A DNA stretch of 6,770 bases, from positions 1 to 6,770 of the forward strand of contig CACYEJ010000425.1 of assembly GCA_902773395.1 (NCBI GenBank), written 5' to 3'. Origin of the DNA: an uncultured Ruminococcus sp. (lineage in GTDB: Bacteria; Bacillota_A; Clostridia; Oscillospirales; Acutalibacteraceae). Of this stretch, positions 313 to 6,770 are shown piece by piece. Numbering within the stretch: the first letter of the stretch is position 1; the number at the start of each line of letters is the position of its first letter. Made by a program: the position numbers and the translations under genes. The notes below the pieces were generated by a model, which worked only from the letters and a program-made list of their open reading frames with translations, made no database searches and had not been told where the DNA came from.

Positions 313-3300
313 TTAATCCTTATCGGGATTAGAATAGTAAACTTTAACATTATCCTTATTCTGGAGATCACCGCCGCTGATTACAACCCAAACATCGCCT
401 GCTGCAGCTCTGTCGGAAGTCTTAGAACCGCCGTTGTTGTTTACAATCCAGTTGTATACATAGTAGCTCTTGAAGTTAACTGTGTACCAGCCGTCATCGC
501 CCAATTCCATAACAGTACCAGGCCAGCCCGGTCTGTCCGGAAGAGCAGCTTCTGTATCCCAAAGGTGCAGACAAGGTGTGAAGTCGCCCTCAACACTGTC
601 AAGAACCTTTACATGGAACGCTGTATCCACAAGCTCTGCGCTTCTGTCAGGCTTGCTGAACTTATATGTGTAAACAACCTCAACGCCGTCCTTAGCGAAC
701 TTGCCGGAAGCGTTGTCAGGAGTCTTTGTAAGCTTATACCAGCTGTCGCTCAAATCCAAAGCCTGTGTTGTGTACTCTGTGCCAACTCTGCCCTTTGAAG
801 TTACAGAATCAGCAACTGCCTTGCCGTTCTCGTCAACATATTTAACAGTCATAGTTCCAACGCCGCCAGCATAAAGGTTATAGTAGTAATTAACCTCTGT
901 AACGCCCTCGGTCATCTTGCCTGTTGTATTGCCGCTGTCGGAATCGAAATCATATTCAAGTACAATATCGTTATCCTTCTGAGTTGTATAAGCCTGACCT
1001 GCGGTACCCTTAATGGTTACTTGCTTGATAACCTCATTTGTAGCCTTATCAATGTGCTTTACAACAACCTTTGCATTCTCGCTGTCAGAAGCTCCTACCT
1101 TATCATAGCTGTCCTTAGGAACAACAATAAGAGCTGCTGTCGGCTGAACCTTAACGTTGCCGGAAACAGTATCAATTGCGGAAAGACCGGCTGTCTGATC
1201 ATCAGCGATTACAACGTATTCCTTGCTCTTTCCTGGCTCTACCTTTTCGAGTCCAACGCTTGCTCTGAGTGTAAAGAGAGCGTCTGCGGAAGTAAACTTG
1301 CCGTCCTTATCAAGATCTGCGAGCTTATCCTGCTCAGCTGTAAATGTTTCCAAACCAACTGATCTTCTCAAAATGAACAATGCGTCTGCCGATGTAACCT
1401 CATTGTCAAAGTCAACATCGCCCATGCCAAACTCTGTGCCTGGCAAAGTAACAACTGCTGCGTCGGAAAGGCTTGCATTAAAGTAAACAACTGCTTCGCT
1501 CCACTGATTCTGAGCTGTGCTGAGGTTCGGGATCTTGTAACCGATAACACCGGCTGGAACTTCCAATTTTTCCATAGCGTCACCGGATGTTGTTGAACCG
1601 TCGCTGAATGCGTCAAAGTTATTTCTAATCTGAATCATGCCCTTATAATAAGAAACGATATCAGCATAATCTGCGCTTCTCTGCCAATCAAGCTTATTGA
1701 TCTCAGGAGAAGACTTATAACTGTTATGATCGCCGAGCTTAGTTCTTGCGAACTCCTCGCCTGCGAGCATAAACGGAACACCCTGAGATGTAAGAGTAAT
1801 AGCAGCGCTAAGCTTGTTGCTTGCGGCAAACTGCTCATTTCTCTGTGTAAACTGCTCATTTGTAGCTGAAACACCGTACTCCGAAGCAACAAGTCTGTCC
1901 CACAAAGTCTGATTATCATGGCAGCAAGCATAAACTATATTCTGAGTAGGCGCAGTTGCTTTCCAAGAAAGACCGCTGCCTCTCTGACCAAGAATGCTGT
2001 AATAGAGAGAACCTGCAAATGTAGCAGCGCCCGAAACATAACCTCTTGATGTAAGGTCATTGAAAGCCTTACCCTTTATGGCATCACGGAACGAATCGTT
2101 AAAGAAGCCAATTCTGCTGTCAGCCAAAGGCGCAAGTGACTGCTTGCAAAGCTTAGTCTTATTGCCTGCCCAGTTTGTCTTGTCGGTAGTAGTACCCAAG
2201 TTCCAGCCCTCACCATATGTGATAATTCTGCTGTCGATATTGTCAAGCTGTCTGCGGATCTCGTTCATTGTGTCCATATCATGAAGACCCATGAGGTCAA
2301 AGCGGAAACCGTCAATATGGTACTCATTTGCCCAATAAGTTACAGACTCAACCATAAACTTCTTGAACATCTCACGTTCGGAAGCAGTATCATTTCCGCA
2401 GCCCGAACCGTTAGACCAGCTGCCGTCAGCATTAATTCTGTAATAGTAGTTAGGAACTGTAAGGTTAAACCATGAATCTGTCGAAGCGTAAGTATGGTTA
2501 TAAACAACGTCCATGATAATACCGATACCGTTATCATGAAGAGCCTTAATCATCTGCTTCATCTCGTTAATTCTTACGTTGCCGTCCTTAGGATTAGAGG
2601 AATAAGAACCCTCTGGAACGTTGTAGTTTTTCGGATCATAACCCCAGTTAAACTGAGTATCCGGACCGTTCTCATCGACCGAACCGAAATCATACATCGG
2701 GTTAATCTGAACATACTTTATACCAAGATCTTTAAGGTAATTCATACAAGTCTTATAATCGCCTGCATTGTTAAGTGTTGTCTGAAGCTCGGTGAAAGCC
2801 ATATACTTACCGCGGTTAGCCTCTGATACGCCCGAAGCCGGATCATAAGAGAAGTCCTTAACATGAATTTCCCAAACATTAGCGTCTGTCGATTCTGCAG
2901 CTCTTTCAAAGCTGTCGTTTTCCCAACCCTCTGGATTTGTGGAAGCGAGGTCAACAACCATTGCGCGGTTGCCGTTAACGCCTGCTGCTTTTGCATAAAT
3001 GTCACAAACCTCTATACCCTCAGGATTTAGAGCATTAACAACCTTATATGTGTAATAAGTATTCTTAATATCGCCGTCTACCTTTACACTCCAAACACCG
3101 GTAGCCTTATCGAGAGTCATCTGTGTTTCGCTGATAAGACCTGCGCCCTCCTCAGCATCGCTGCCCGTCTTATAAAGCTCAAGCTTTACATCACTTGATG
3201 ACGGCGCCCAAACCTTAAACGTAGTAGACTCAGGCGTATAAACAGCGCCGAGATCATCTCCGCTGTATGTCGGGTAAGTAGAGTAGTCACCTACTGCCAT

Positions 3301-3414
3301 AGTATCCACGCTCTTAGGTGTATCTGTTTCGGAAGCGCTTGCTCCCAATGCGCAGAAAGTCGAGGTGAGCATTGCAGCAGCAATAATGACAGACATAGTT
3401 CTTCTGAATTTCAT
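313..3414 (-). CDS. Secreted dockerin-bearing type I pullulanase (GH13 with CBM48, MucBP-like and CBM26-like domains)
   Basis: This 1033-residue extracellular enzyme is predicted to hydrolyse alpha-1,6 branch points in starch, amylopectin or pullulan. Residues 1-27 form a signal peptide: basic MKFRR, a hydrophobic core and an ASA cleavage site. CBM48 spans about 50-165. The GH13 barrel (about 175-630) has the type I pullulanase signature FNWGYDP (255-261), DVVYNHT (302-308), nucleophile Asp373 in GFRFDLMG, acid/base Glu402 in YGEGW, and His499-Asp500 in CCHDN. A C-terminal beta domain (about 638-766) is interrupted by a type I dockerin at 665-723. Two MucBP-like repeats follow (about 782-848 and 854-919), then a CBM26-like starch-binding module (about 931-1028, motif GWPGTVM and several Trp/Tyr). 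The ATG is fixed by the signal peptide and by AGGAGG eight bases upstream. The dockerin implies docking on a cohesin scaffold, as in R. bromii amylosomes. All catalytic residues are present. The family call is strong; the exact substrate is inferred. Confidence 0.96.
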   Translation of the reverse strand: MKFRRTMSVIIAAAMLTSTFCALGASASETDTPKSVDTMAVGDYSTYPTYSGDDLGAVYTPESTTFKVWAPSSSDVKLELYKTGSDAEEGAGLISETQMTLDKATGVWSVKVDGDIKNTYYTYKVVNALNPEGIEVCDIYAKAAGVNGNRAMVVDLASTNPEGWENDSFERAAESTDANVWEIHVKDFSYDPASGVSEANRGKYMAFTELQTTLNNAGDYKTCMNYLKDLGIKYVQINPMYDFGSVDENGPDTQFNWGYDPKNYNVPEGSYSSNPKDGNVRINEMKQMIKALHDNGIGIIMDVVYNHTYASTDSWFNLTVPNYYYRINADGSWSNGSGCGNDTASEREMFKKFMVESVTYWANEYHIDGFRFDLMGLHDMDTMNEIRRQLDNIDSRIITYGEGWNLGTTTDKTNWAGNKTKLCKQSLAPLADSRIGFFNDSFRDAIKGKAFNDLTSRGYVSGAATFAGSLYYSILGQRGSGLSWKATAPTQNIVYACCHDNQTLWDRLVASEYGVSATNEQFTQRNEQFAASNKLSAAITLTSQGVPFMLAGEEFARTKLGDHNSYKSSPEINKLDWQRSADYADIVSYYKGMIQIRNNFDAFSDGSTTSGDAMEKLEVPAGVIGYKIPNLSTAQNQWSEAVVYFNASLSDAAVVTLPGTEFGMGDVDFDNEVTSADALFILRRSVGLETFTAEQDKLADLDKDGKFTSADALFTLRASVGLEKVEPGKSKEYVVIADDQTAGLSAIDTVSGNVKVQPTAALIVVPKDSYDKVGASDSENAKVVVKHIDKATNEVIKQVTIKGTAGQAYTTQKDNDIVLEYDFDSDSGNTTGKMTEGVTEVNYYYNLYAGGVGTMTVKYVDENGKAVADSVTSKGRVGTEYTTQALDLSDSWYKLTKTPDNASGKFAKDGVEVVYTYKFSKPDRSAELVDTAFHVKVLDSVEGDFTPCLHLWDTEAALPDRPGWPGTVMELGDDGWYTVNFKSYYVYNWIVNNNGGSKTSDRAAAGDVWVVISGGDLQNKDNVKVYYSNPDKD
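1246..1422 (-). other. Type I dockerin domain encoded within the pullulanase gene
   Basis: Residues 665-723 hold two duplicated EF-hand-like calcium-binding segments. The first has Asp at 666, 668, 670 and 677, which are loop positions 1, 3, 5 and 12. The second has Asp at 700, 702, 704 and 711. Each loop runs into a nearly identical helix, TSADALFILRRSVGLE and TSADALFTLRASVGLE. Dockerins bind cohesins and place enzymes on scaffolds. Ser-Ala occupies loop positions 10 and 11, the usual recognition positions, in both halves, so the partner surface is twofold symmetric. The first loop is atypical, with Phe at position 4 and Asn where Gly is usual at position 6. The domain lies between strands of the enzyme's C-terminal beta domain, not at a terminus. 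No cohesin gene is visible in the window. Confidence 0.93.
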
Positions 3415-3687: not shown

Positions 3688-6600
3688 TTAAACAGTCTTC
3701 TTACTTTTCAATACAAATGCCGCTATTCCTCCGGCAAGAACCGCTACTCCGCCTGACGCAAGCCAGACAATCAGACTTTTGCCATAGTTAGGCTTGTAAT
3801 TAAATATTACATTAATTTCTTCTGCCGTATAATTGCCAACAACATTATTTGCATTTTCCACTAATTCATATCCAAAGAAATCTTTCGGAACAACATCATA
3901 TCCTGCGCCTATCTGACCCGTATAAACATCTTTATCAATAACAGCGCCCGAATAATCTATATAAATAACGTTAACTCTGCCCGAGGTAACAACTTCCCTT
4001 TCGTTTTTATCTGCAATGACACCGTTATTTATCCATACTTCACCGGAAACAGCATAACCCTCATGACCGGCATGCGGATCCTGAGCATTTCCGTCCGCAA
4101 AGACGACTTTCACACCGCTGACGCCGCTGAGAATACTTGACGGAATTGTATAAGACCACCAGCCGTCACCATCATTTTTCATTGACGCCCCAGGCCATCC
4201 GCCTAATATCTGCTTTGTACCGTCACCGCTGCGCATACCGTTGCCGTAAGCATACAAAGTAATGTTTTGCCAATTCTTACTGTTATAATAATGCACCGTA
4301 ATAGTTTCATTCTTTATCGGGGAATACCTGTAGCAAACCTCGGTATTGCCGCCGGAGAATTTTCCTGCGCCGTTGTTCGGCAAACTCGTCAAATCAAGCG
4401 CATAACCTTTAATTGTGGGGATTTCCGCCGTATAATAACGTTCTCCCGTTCTGCCTGTCTGCGTAACAGATGAAGTAAGCTCTCTTCCTGTTTCGCTGTC
4501 TGTAAATCTAATTGTTACAGTACCATAAGTACCGGAGTATTTTGAATATATCAGAGTAACCTCGGCGCCCTCTTCGGAAAATTTCCCACTAGTATTTCCG
4601 ACTGCTTTTTTGAAAGTATACCTCGTAGACAAAGCTTCATCGGCTTTAATCGAGTAGCTTTTTCCGATTGTACCCGTAATTGTCTGCTTTTTTATAAGAT
4701 CTCCCGTATCTGCGTCAATATGCTTTACTGTGATAATACCCTTATCGGATTCGAGTTTTGCAGCGTCAAAGCTTTCCTTATCTATGAGCATAAGAGCGGT
4801 ACCGGCTTTAACGGAAACTCTGTTTTCCTTAACAACGGCAAGCCCGCCCAGACCGGCGCTGTCGCCATTCACAACAACAACCCATTCCTCGGAAAGTCCC
4901 TGCGGCAGTTCAACATCAACATCATTAGTCGACGCATTGAACAACACGGCTACTTCTTTCCACTCATTGCTGTTCAACTCGTTTTTCAAAGTATAAGCAA
5001 TAACTCCTTTTGGAAGATTATCAATAAATATAATATTATTTACCGAATTAACTGTAGGATCGGTAAACGGTGAGAAATTTTTTCTTATCTCAATAAGCCC
5101 GGAATAATACCGAACAAGATCGCTGTAATCGCTGCGTCTTTGCCAATCAAGCCTGTTAACGGCAGAAGACGATCTATAGGAATTCTCATCGCCGAATTTT
5201 GTTCGGGCAAACTCCTCGCCGGCATGAATAAAATTGATTCCCTGCGACATAAGAGAGATAGCGGCGGCAAGCTTATTCATACCCAACAGCTTCTCGTTTC
5301 TTGATTTGTAATCATCAGCGGAGCCGTCTGTAGCAACAAGCTTATCCCACAACGTATAATTATCATGACAGGAATTATAAGTAACCGTCTGAGTAGGCAG
5401 CTTAGCCCAATTTCCTGTTTCTGCCGTAATACCGGATTTAACTTTCAGCTGTTCTTCGCAGCCCTGAATGTAGCCGCCCTCTTTTGCTTCAAAATTACTG
5501 CCTTTAATTCCATCGCGAATTCCATCATTAAAAGCTCCGATTCTGTCTGACAGCAATTTCATATTTGGCTGAGAAGCCATTATTGTTCCCGGCTCGGCGC
5601 TCGTACCTATTGACCATGCCTCACCGTACATCAAGATTTTTTCGCCGCCCTCAAGCTCATCAAGAGCGTCACGGATCGCATTCATGGTATCCACATCGTG
5701 CAGACCCATCAAATCAAATCTAAAACCGTCTATATGGTATTCTTTTGCCCAGTACACGACAGAATCCACCATGTACTTTCTGAACATAAGGTGTTCGGAA
5801 GCAGTATCGTTGCCGCAGCCGGAACCGTTAGACCAGCTTCCGTCCTGATTTAATCTATAATAATAATCAGGCACCGTGATATTGAACCACGAATCAGCAC
5901 TAACATAAGTATGATTGAACACAACGTCCATAACCACGCCCAGTCCATTGCTGTGAATAGCCTGTATCATCTGTTTTACTTCGTTAATTCTAACATTGCC
6001 GTCATAAGGATTTGAAGAATAAGAACCCTCGGGCACGTTATAATTTTTCGGGTCATAACCCCAATTAAATTGATCCTCGTCTGAAGACTCGTCAACCGAA
6101 CCAAAATCAAAAATAGGAAGCAGCTGAATGTAATTGACTCCCAACTCTTTTATATAGTCAATCCCGGTTGTGGAAATTCCGGATGAATTAACCGTTGTGC
6201 CGTTTTCTGTAAACGCAAGATATTTTCCCCGATTTTTGGCGCTGATGCCTGACGCCGGGTCATTTGAAAAATCCTTTACATTGACCTCCCAAACAATTGC
6301 TTTTGACTGATCCTCCACCGAAACATGGCGGTCATTTTCCCAATTTACAGGATCAGTAGCTCTCAAATCAACAACCATACCTCTGTTGCCGTTTACGCCG
6401 GCAGCTTTGGCATAGATATCAACAGTTTCTCTACCCTTTTTTCCTTGATAAATATTATAAGTGTAATACTTATTAACTAAATCTCCCGAAACAACAGCGC
6501 TCCATACTCCGTTAGTATCATCATATTCCATCTCAGTTGCGGAGATATACTTACTTCCCTCTTCCTCATCGCTGCCTGTAGCGTATATAAGTACCTGAAC

Positions 6601-6711
6601 ACGCTCTGAAGTAGGCGACCAAACTTTAAAAGTAGTAGCCTCTTTAGTATAAACGGCACCAAGATCATCTCCGCTGTATGCCAATCTGTCCAATTCTGCT
6701 ACTGAACTCAC
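3688..6711 (-). CDS. Surface-anchored type I pullulanase (GH13 with CBM48, MucBP-like and CBM26 domains); 5' end uncertain
   Basis: This 1007-residue paralogue of gene 1 is predicted to debranch starch at alpha-1,6 linkages. CBM48 spans about 13-125. The GH13 barrel (about 135-575) carries FNWGYDP (215-221), DVVFNHT (262-268), nucleophile Asp333 in GFRFDLMG, acid/base Glu364 in YGEAW, and His449-Asp450 in SCHDN. An uninterrupted C-terminal beta domain (about 582-646) follows, with no dockerin. Then come MucBP-like repeats (about 659-723 and 730-797), a CBM26 module (about 803-905, motif GGWPGASM with WW), a third MucBP-like repeat (about 912-972), a transmembrane segment (979-1001) and a KSKKTV tail. 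The anchor and binding modules require export, yet the annotated GTG start gives no signal peptide. In-frame sequence upstream looks coding but for one TAA at 6727-6729, so the gene may be N-terminally broken. No intrinsic terminator follows, only the MITE-like repeat. Confidence 0.92.
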   Translation of the reverse strand: MSSVAELDRLAYSGDDLGAVYTKEATTFKVWSPTSERVQVLIYATGSDEEEGSKYISATEMEYDDTNGVWSAVVSGDLVNKYYTYNIYQGKKGRETVDIYAKAAGVNGNRGMVVDLRATDPVNWENDRHVSVEDQSKAIVWEVNVKDFSNDPASGISAKNRGKYLAFTENGTTVNSSGISTTGIDYIKELGVNYIQLLPIFDFGSVDESSDEDQFNWGYDPKNYNVPEGSYSSNPYDGNVRINEVKQMIQAIHSNGLGVVMDVVFNHTYVSADSWFNITVPDYYYRLNQDGSWSNGSGCGNDTASEHLMFRKYMVDSVVYWAKEYHIDGFRFDLMGLHDVDTMNAIRDALDELEGGEKILMYGEAWSIGTSAEPGTIMASQPNMKLLSDRIGAFNDGIRDGIKGSNFEAKEGGYIQGCEEQLKVKSGITAETGNWAKLPTQTVTYNSCHDNYTLWDKLVATDGSADDYKSRNEKLLGMNKLAAAISLMSQGINFIHAGEEFARTKFGDENSYRSSSAVNRLDWQRRSDYSDLVRYYSGLIEIRKNFSPFTDPTVNSVNNIIFIDNLPKGVIAYTLKNELNSNEWKEVAVLFNASTNDVDVELPQGLSEEWVVVVNGDSAGLGGLAVVKENRVSVKAGTALMLIDKESFDAAKLESDKGIITVKHIDADTGDLIKKQTITGTIGKSYSIKADEALSTRYTFKKAVGNTSGKFSEEGAEVTLIYSKYSGTYGTVTIRFTDSETGRELTSSVTQTGRTGERYYTAEIPTIKGYALDLTSLPNNGAGKFSGGNTEVCYRYSPIKNETITVHYYNSKNWQNITLYAYGNGMRSGDGTKQILGGWPGASMKNDGDGWWSYTIPSSILSGVSGVKVVFADGNAQDPHAGHEGYAVSGEVWINNGVIADKNEREVVTSGRVNVIYIDYSGAVIDKDVYTGQIGAGYDVVPKDFFGYELVENANNVVGNYTAEEINVIFNYKPNYGKSLIVWLASGGVAVLAGGIAAFVLKSKKTV

Positions 6712-6770
6712 TGAATTCTCCCCCGATTAATAATTCTCCAATTTATCGGCACGATAATCACCGCTGACAG
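6712..6770 (-). other. In-phase, coding-like upstream extension of gene 2 with one TAA
   Basis: In the same phase as gene 2, the minus strand reads VSGDYRADKLENY, then TAA (6727-6729), then SGENS, and runs into the GTG start. The stretch is hydrophilic and purine-first in codon pattern, like the linker expected between a signal peptide and CBM48. A second frame (stop TGA overlapping the GTG as GTGA) is also open to the window edge and reads LSAVIIVPINW before a basic tail. It could instead be the end of an upstream gene. The window edge prevents a decision. Confidence 0.4.
6718..6724 (-). promoter_or_regulatory. Possible ribosome binding site for the GTG start of gene 2
   Basis: The minus strand reads GGGGGAG, then six bases (AATTCA; counted from the final G of GGAG), then GTG at 6711-6709. 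It is purine-rich but departs from AGGAGG. In the phase of gene 2 these bases read Gly-Glu, so the site could also be ordinary coding sequence of a longer protein. Confidence 0.4.

Follow-up and report, generated by a model that had tools for sequence, protein, structure and literature searches.

In the amylosome of Ruminococcus bromii, pullulanases that carry dockerins bind the cohesins of scaffoldins. Amy12 and Amy10 have both been reported as pullulanases, and the dockerin of Amy12 bound a Sca5 cohesin strongly (available part of PMC5814915). The module order is given there as SP (signal peptide) CBM48 GH13 MucBP Doc (dockerin) MucBP CBM26 for Amy12 and as SP CBM48 GH13 MucBP MucBP CBM26 MucBP Doc CBM26 for Amy10. 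Here we describe a Ruminococcus pullulanase in which the dockerin lies inside another folded domain. It is encoded by gene 1 of a 6,770-nucleotide stretch (the window) that makes up positions 1 to 6,770 of contig CACYEJ010000425.1, from an uncultured Ruminococcus sp. (assembly GCA_902773395.1). Gene 1 resembles Amy12 (7LSA, 9QFA) and Amy10 (9QF8) in having CBM48, GH13, MucBP repeats, a dockerin and CBM26, and the solved R. bromii core (7LSU) is 48% identical to it over 661 aligned residues. Unlike that of gene 1, the dockerin of Amy12 and Amy10 is listed between modules and not inside one, as far as the available part of the R. bromii report goes.

Dockerins away from the chain end have also been described in Ruminococcus flavefaciens, where the internal ones matched terminal dockerins in activity (PMC5301203), and in Clostridium thermocellum Cel5C-CE2 (PMC2661963). 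In the available parts of these two reports the dockerins are mid-chain, as in gene 1, or between modules, and no split folded domain is mentioned. More generally, gene 1 is like the A1-B-A2 domain insertions, in which a small domain with close termini is placed in a host domain; these are reported in 20% of multidomain proteins in the available part of PMC13114784, a paper whose main text does not contain the word ‘dockerin’. Domain insertion as such is common, and both internal dockerins and amylosome pullulanases are already known. In literature coverage that left out most subscription journals, we recognised no account of a dockerin that interrupts a folded domain, as it does here at three different sites within a single clade of enzymes.

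A dockerin nested in the beta domain of gene 1

Two type I pullulanase genes stand in tandem on the minus strand of the window, gene 2 upstream of gene 1. Both encode CBM48, GH13, MucBP repeats and CBM26, and a dockerin is present in gene 1 only; by BLASTP, 388 of 823 aligned columns are identical (47%). Gene 1 matches TIGR02104 over its full length with 667.2 bits, against a curated cut-off of 504.5, and by this assignment is a type I pullulanase, predicted to cleave pullulan at alpha-1,6 bonds. D373, E402 and D500, which we take to be its catalytic positions, are invariant across 63 aligned sequences (positions 326, 355 and 453 of the first row).

The stretch of interest, window positions 1222-1446 on the minus strand, encodes residues 657-731 of the open reading frame (ORF) at 313-3414. 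Within it, Dockerin_1 (PF00404), the type I dockerin profile, matches residues 665-713 with 33.7 bits (cut-off 22.9), and a purpose-built dockerin profile scores 83.8 bits over the range given in Table 1. The calcium-ligand motif of type I dockerins has its ligands at positions 1, 3, 5, 9 and 12, and both repeats of gene 1, as read from the sequence, contain complete calcium loops with all of these ligands. The beta-domain model PF21653, which has 60 positions, covers its counterpart in gene 2 nearly whole (residues 559-617, positions 4-59, 49.8 bits); on gene 1 it matches positions 5-49 only (residues 614-660, 16.3 bits, under the 26.7 cut-off), and this match breaks off at the start of the insert. 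Similarly, the alignment of gene 1 to R. bromii Amy12 ends at residue 660 and restarts at 732, while the counterpart chain of Amy12 is nearly continuous, running from 655 to 659 in 9QFA and from 674 to 678 in 7LSA with three residues between. The break in PF21653 together with the gap in the Amy12 alignment therefore means that the dockerin interrupts one domain: its flanks, contiguous in gene 2 and in Amy12, are the two parts of a single beta domain, in an A1-B-A2 arrangement. This is not the layout of Amy12, where the dockerin lies between two MucBP repeats; that of gene 1 precedes both and splits the beta domain.

Structural comparison points the same way. An AlphaFold2 model of residues 48-790 has a predicted local distance difference test score (pLDDT) of 92.6 and can be overlaid on pullulanases without a dockerin as far as the last beta strand, and so on both sides of the insert; the second part of the beta domain falls inside the superposed range. 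Solved pullulanases of Bacillus, Paenibacillus and barley align across the insertion site, and the catalytic and beta domains superpose with the type I pullulanases of Paenibacillus barengoltzii (6JFJ) and Bacillus acidopullulyticus (2WAN) with root-mean-square deviations of 1.9 and 1.7, respectively. We take both enzymes to lack a dockerin, and the alignment range of 6JFJ leaves no space for one. An original prediction, made from the DNA alone, had placed the dockerin in a loop of the beta domain and not at an end or in a linker, a placement borne out by the contiguity in gene 2 and Amy12, the solved relatives and the high-confidence model. The strands on either side might instead have turned out to belong to different domains, and the superposition across both sides shows that they do not. 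The same prediction would have the dockerin sit rigidly beside the catalytic barrel. The linkers that flank the dockerin differ visibly in length within the clade and lend this part no support. In window positions 1150-1520 we saw no pair of DNA repeats flanking the dockerin that might have marked an insertion event, and the guanine-cytosine content of the dockerin stretch is not out of line with the neighbouring DNA.

The insertion is conserved in a clade and derived

Relatives were collected by three protein searches (P0001-P0163; one of them the best 120 of 7978) and one genome scan (best 80 of 187 loci). Among these best 80, the top loci come from uncultured Ruminococcus, Clostridiales or Clostridia, and the one nearest to gene 1, L001, is 75% identical to it across residues 1-1031. 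The enzyme core was matched in 232 proteins, a set that includes near-duplicates and counts the window's own protein twice (g1 and P0001). The purpose-built profile finds a dockerin in 127 of them and none in 105. As the set was gathered with dockerin-bearing queries and from best-N lists, the class frequencies are biased: the dockerin lies in the beta-domain loop in 46 carriers, in the MucBP1-MucBP2 class in 73, near or at the C-terminus in seven and in the catalytic domain in one. Inspection of the flanks by eye corrects the 73 to 71, as P0082, whose dockerin splits MucBP2, and P0149, which has another layout, had been misfiled. In all 46 beta-loop carriers, g1 and P0001 both counted, the insert is in frame in the same loop with the same kind of flanks, and the nesting is therefore not chance.

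Two further proteins have a dockerin inside a different domain. In P0010, which represents five clustered sequences, each on its own contig, it occupies residues 334-391, within the GH13 catalytic domain. In P0082, a single sequence on one contig, it occupies residues 797-855, within the second MucBP repeat.

In 230 of the 232 proteins the core is covered well enough for tree building; once those with at least 98% core identity were dropped, 208 were left, including 37 of the beta-loop class. In a FastTree phylogeny of these cores, all 37 beta-loop proteins fall in one clade of 40 with support 1.0, whose other members are P0010, P0082 and the fragment P0143, which stops short of the loop. An IQ-TREE analysis of 65 sequences (39 of the clade, without P0143, 20 of the MucBP-linker class, taken as every third, and six dockerin-less) recovers the 39-member clade with 100/100 and unites all 59 dockerin carriers in the tree with 98.3/100; the backbone inside the beta-loop clade is weak (one node 6/44). 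The outgroups and deep branches are made up of dockerin-less sequences, and no deep-branching pullulanase with a dockerin in the beta loop was found among the 232 proteins. As the beta-loop carriers are one nested clade with dockerin-less outgroups, the insert is derived and the dockerin-less state is ancestral. A deletion of an ancestral insert from gene 2, which would have undone the original prediction, is ruled out by the same outgroups and single clade.

Predicted docking

Cohesin domains above the family cut-off are present in the genomes of all 11 loci L001-L011, which are all beta-loop carrier loci, compared with 1 of 14 control genomes. Because of these cohesins in the genomes of its relatives, gene 1 is likely an amylosome-type debranching enzyme, docked via its beta domain. 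The head and tail of type I dockerins are held by a clasp (available part of PMC4728124), in support of the close termini on which the original prediction relied, and insertion into a loop should therefore be easy.

In our reading, the product of gene 1 is a secreted type I pullulanase from what is probably a gut (rumen) Ruminococcus. Its dockerin is a true nested domain in a loop between two beta-domain strands, so that the beta domain that closes GH13 is built from two stretches of chain. The dockerin would fold alone, with head and tail clasped, leaving the beta sandwich intact, and would plug the enzyme into the cohesin scaffold of an amylosome. The Pfam domains agree with the prediction that the MucBP repeats and CBM26 lie downstream of the dockerin. 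There they would be left ‘free’ and available for starch and surface contacts. Dockerins may have entered loops of this enzyme repeatedly, and those in the loops may have been exchanged by recombination.

An in-domain dockerin kept across a clade departs from the usual drawing of docking modules as beads on a string. It would put the attachment point near the active-site domain and could shield linkers from proteases, and these natural loop sites for dockerin placement could be copied in designer-cellulosome or amylosome work.

Possible exchange or movement of dockerins

The pullulanase dockerins do not always diverge in step with their enzymes. The sisters P0082 and P0008, which carry dockerins at different sites (in P0008, the beta loop), are 97.0% identical in the core, 88.9% in the beta/MucBP1 segment and 49.1% in the dockerin; for P0073 and P0075, both of the beta-loop class, the values are 88.4%, 80.6% and 36.8%. 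By contrast, the dockerin keeps pace in P0012 versus P0013 (core 88.0%, segment 81.6%, dockerin 87.9%) and in P0003 versus L002 (97.2%, 92.9% and 94.8%). Across the 72 pairs with at least 80% core identity, the dockerin has a median identity of 55.2% and the segment one of 74.6%. Because dockerin identity is far below core identity in some pairs, these comparisons fit a putative scenario in which recombination has replaced the dockerin in certain lineages. P0082 and P0008, near-identical enzymes with different dockerins in different loops, offer a natural experiment on the rewiring of scaffold specificity. Of 200 family genomes queried with the P0082 dockerin, 66 had matches; among the matches listed, the best had 52.9 bits and 49% identity, and none is a close donor.

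One possible generalisation, which we put forward tentatively, is that the pullulanase dockerins of gut Ruminococcus are exchangeable cassettes that insert in loops. Short recombination tracts would move them out of and into the beta-domain hairpin, a GH13 loop and the MucBP2 hairpin, the host domains staying unbroken, so that cohesin specificity and attachment geometry would both be re-set within a lineage. We think it unlikely that one and the same dockerin was instead relocated from loop to loop within a gene, not lost and replaced. A dockerin tree does pair the dockerins of P0010 and P0082 with those of their enzyme sisters, as relocation would have it (P0010 with P0003/P0004 at 0.55, or 0.73 with P0002, and P0082 with P0008 at 0.85), at modest support. 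Simple relocation is nevertheless disfavoured by the 49.1% dockerin identity of P0082 and P0008 at 97.0% core identity, and the P0010 dockerin is nearer to that of a relative's alpha-amylase at L119 (69.0%), the closest among those compared, than to those of its sister P0004 (62.1%) or its best beta-class match P0065 (66.1%). The L119 gene (2780-5449, minus strand) is alpha-amylase-like, judged by eye and by its likeness to P0037, and its product continues for some way beyond an internal dockerin.

Alternative explanations

Taken as a whole, we consider it very probable that the best account of gene 1 is the dockerin computed to be nested, conserved in a clade and derived, which would fold autonomously, dock, and belong to a history of repeated gain or exchange. 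An ordinary linker dockerin between separate domains, with unrelated strands on either side, would be familiar enough, since internal linker dockerins are known and the MucBP1-MucBP2 linker is the commonest site in these pullulanases. Given that both sides are contiguous in one domain in gene 2 and Amy12 and that the superposition spans both, we rule this out on the Amy12 alignment and the structures, and give it very little credence. As little attaches to the idea that the insert is ancestral and was lost from gene 2 and the other dockerin-less enzymes. P0010 and P0082 sit inside the beta-loop clade without a dockerin at that loop, and so loss can occur, but the outgroups and deep branches are dockerin-less, the carriers are one nested clade, and the alignments to the solved pullulanases of Bacillus, Paenibacillus and barley run straight through the site.

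That the insertion is decayed or neutral and has no role in docking would suit the great variation of the dockerin among close relatives. We find it improbable in view of the complete calcium-loop ligands in both repeats of gene 1, the reading frame kept in 46 proteins and the cohesins in 11 of 11 relatives' genomes. Several points weigh against our account of a nested, docking and exchangeable dockerin. Cohesin binding by the gene 1 dockerin is a prediction, as is the gene 1 model, which was supplied without inter-domain error. Fast divergence could also lower dockerin identity and so mimic exchange. The inserted dockerin of P0010 is modelled poorly (pLDDT blocks 39-62), and when 22 genomes from the G001 genus were searched, the P0010 layout was not among the matches listed. 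Three long-range matches were inspected there and the rest judged from the match table alone: of the three, one (query 13-122) is a different protein whose dockerin is N-terminal, and the others match over the dockerin, with either no tail or a chance one. For the P0082 layout, with the dockerin in MucBP2, there was no second case among the five proteins of the P0082-query search.

Gene 2 and other features of the locus

A dockerin-less pullulanase lies directly upstream in 26 of 29 dockerin-pullulanase loci (10 of 11 beta-loop and 16 of 18 MucBP-linker loci); in the remaining three (L003, L012 and L021), fewer than 640 bases separate the start of the gene from the contig end, too few to tell. 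The tails of 10 upstream paralogues were compared, and all 10 have a C-terminal hydrophobic stretch as in gene 2. A probably cell-anchored pullulanase and a putatively scaffold-docked one thus seem to be encoded side by side.

The features of the window are collected in Table 1. The module order of gene 1 is signal peptide, CBM48, GH13, dockerin-split beta domain, MucBP, MucBP and CBM26, the signal peptide having been read off the sequence and not predicted by a program.

Table 1. Features of the two pullulanase genes, with residues numbered along gene 1 and positions along the window.
Feature	Residues	Window positions	Strand	Evidence or remarks
Gene 1, type I pullulanase, 1033 aa		313..3414	minus	ORF; TIGR02104; Pfam domains
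CBM48	55-129	3028..3252	minus	PF02922, 40.2 bits (cut-off 22.4)
GH13 catalytic domain	~180-605	1600..2877 (ends approximate)	minus	PF00128 and TIGR02104
Beta domain, first part	614-659	1438..1575	minus	PF21653 positions 5-49 (below cut-off); model strands 623-629, 640-646, 653-656
Nested type I dockerin, two EF-hand-like repeats	665-722	1249..1422	minus	PF00404; purpose-built profile; three model helices
Beta domain, second part	731-766	1117..1224	minus	Aligns to stretch directly continuing in Amy12; model strands 733-737, 748-750, 753-756, 760-766
Two MucBP repeats	~783-845 and 856-918	661..1068	minus	PF06458, two stretches, best 856-918; ends of first repeat estimated from gene 1/gene 2 alignment
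CBM26 starch-binding module	946-1001	412..579	minus	PF16738, 35.0 bits (cut-off 28.1)
Gene 2, type I pullulanase paralogue without dockerin, immediately upstream of gene 1		3688..6711	minus	Intact beta domain; C-terminal hydrophobic stretch

At its start (window positions 6652-6770), gene 2 has a GTG codon and no signal peptide, with an in-frame stop just upstream. Ten gene 2 paralogues from relatives extend further upstream, with a hydrophobic leader by eye. A sequence error may explain the start of gene 2, or its 5' end may be broken; 59 bases are left on which to judge.

Each of the 22 genomes from the G001 genus had between 13 and 71 matches to a peptide query made of a dockerin and its catalytic flank. 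Most of the matches listed fall over the dockerin part, which suggests that these genomes each encode very many dockerin proteins.
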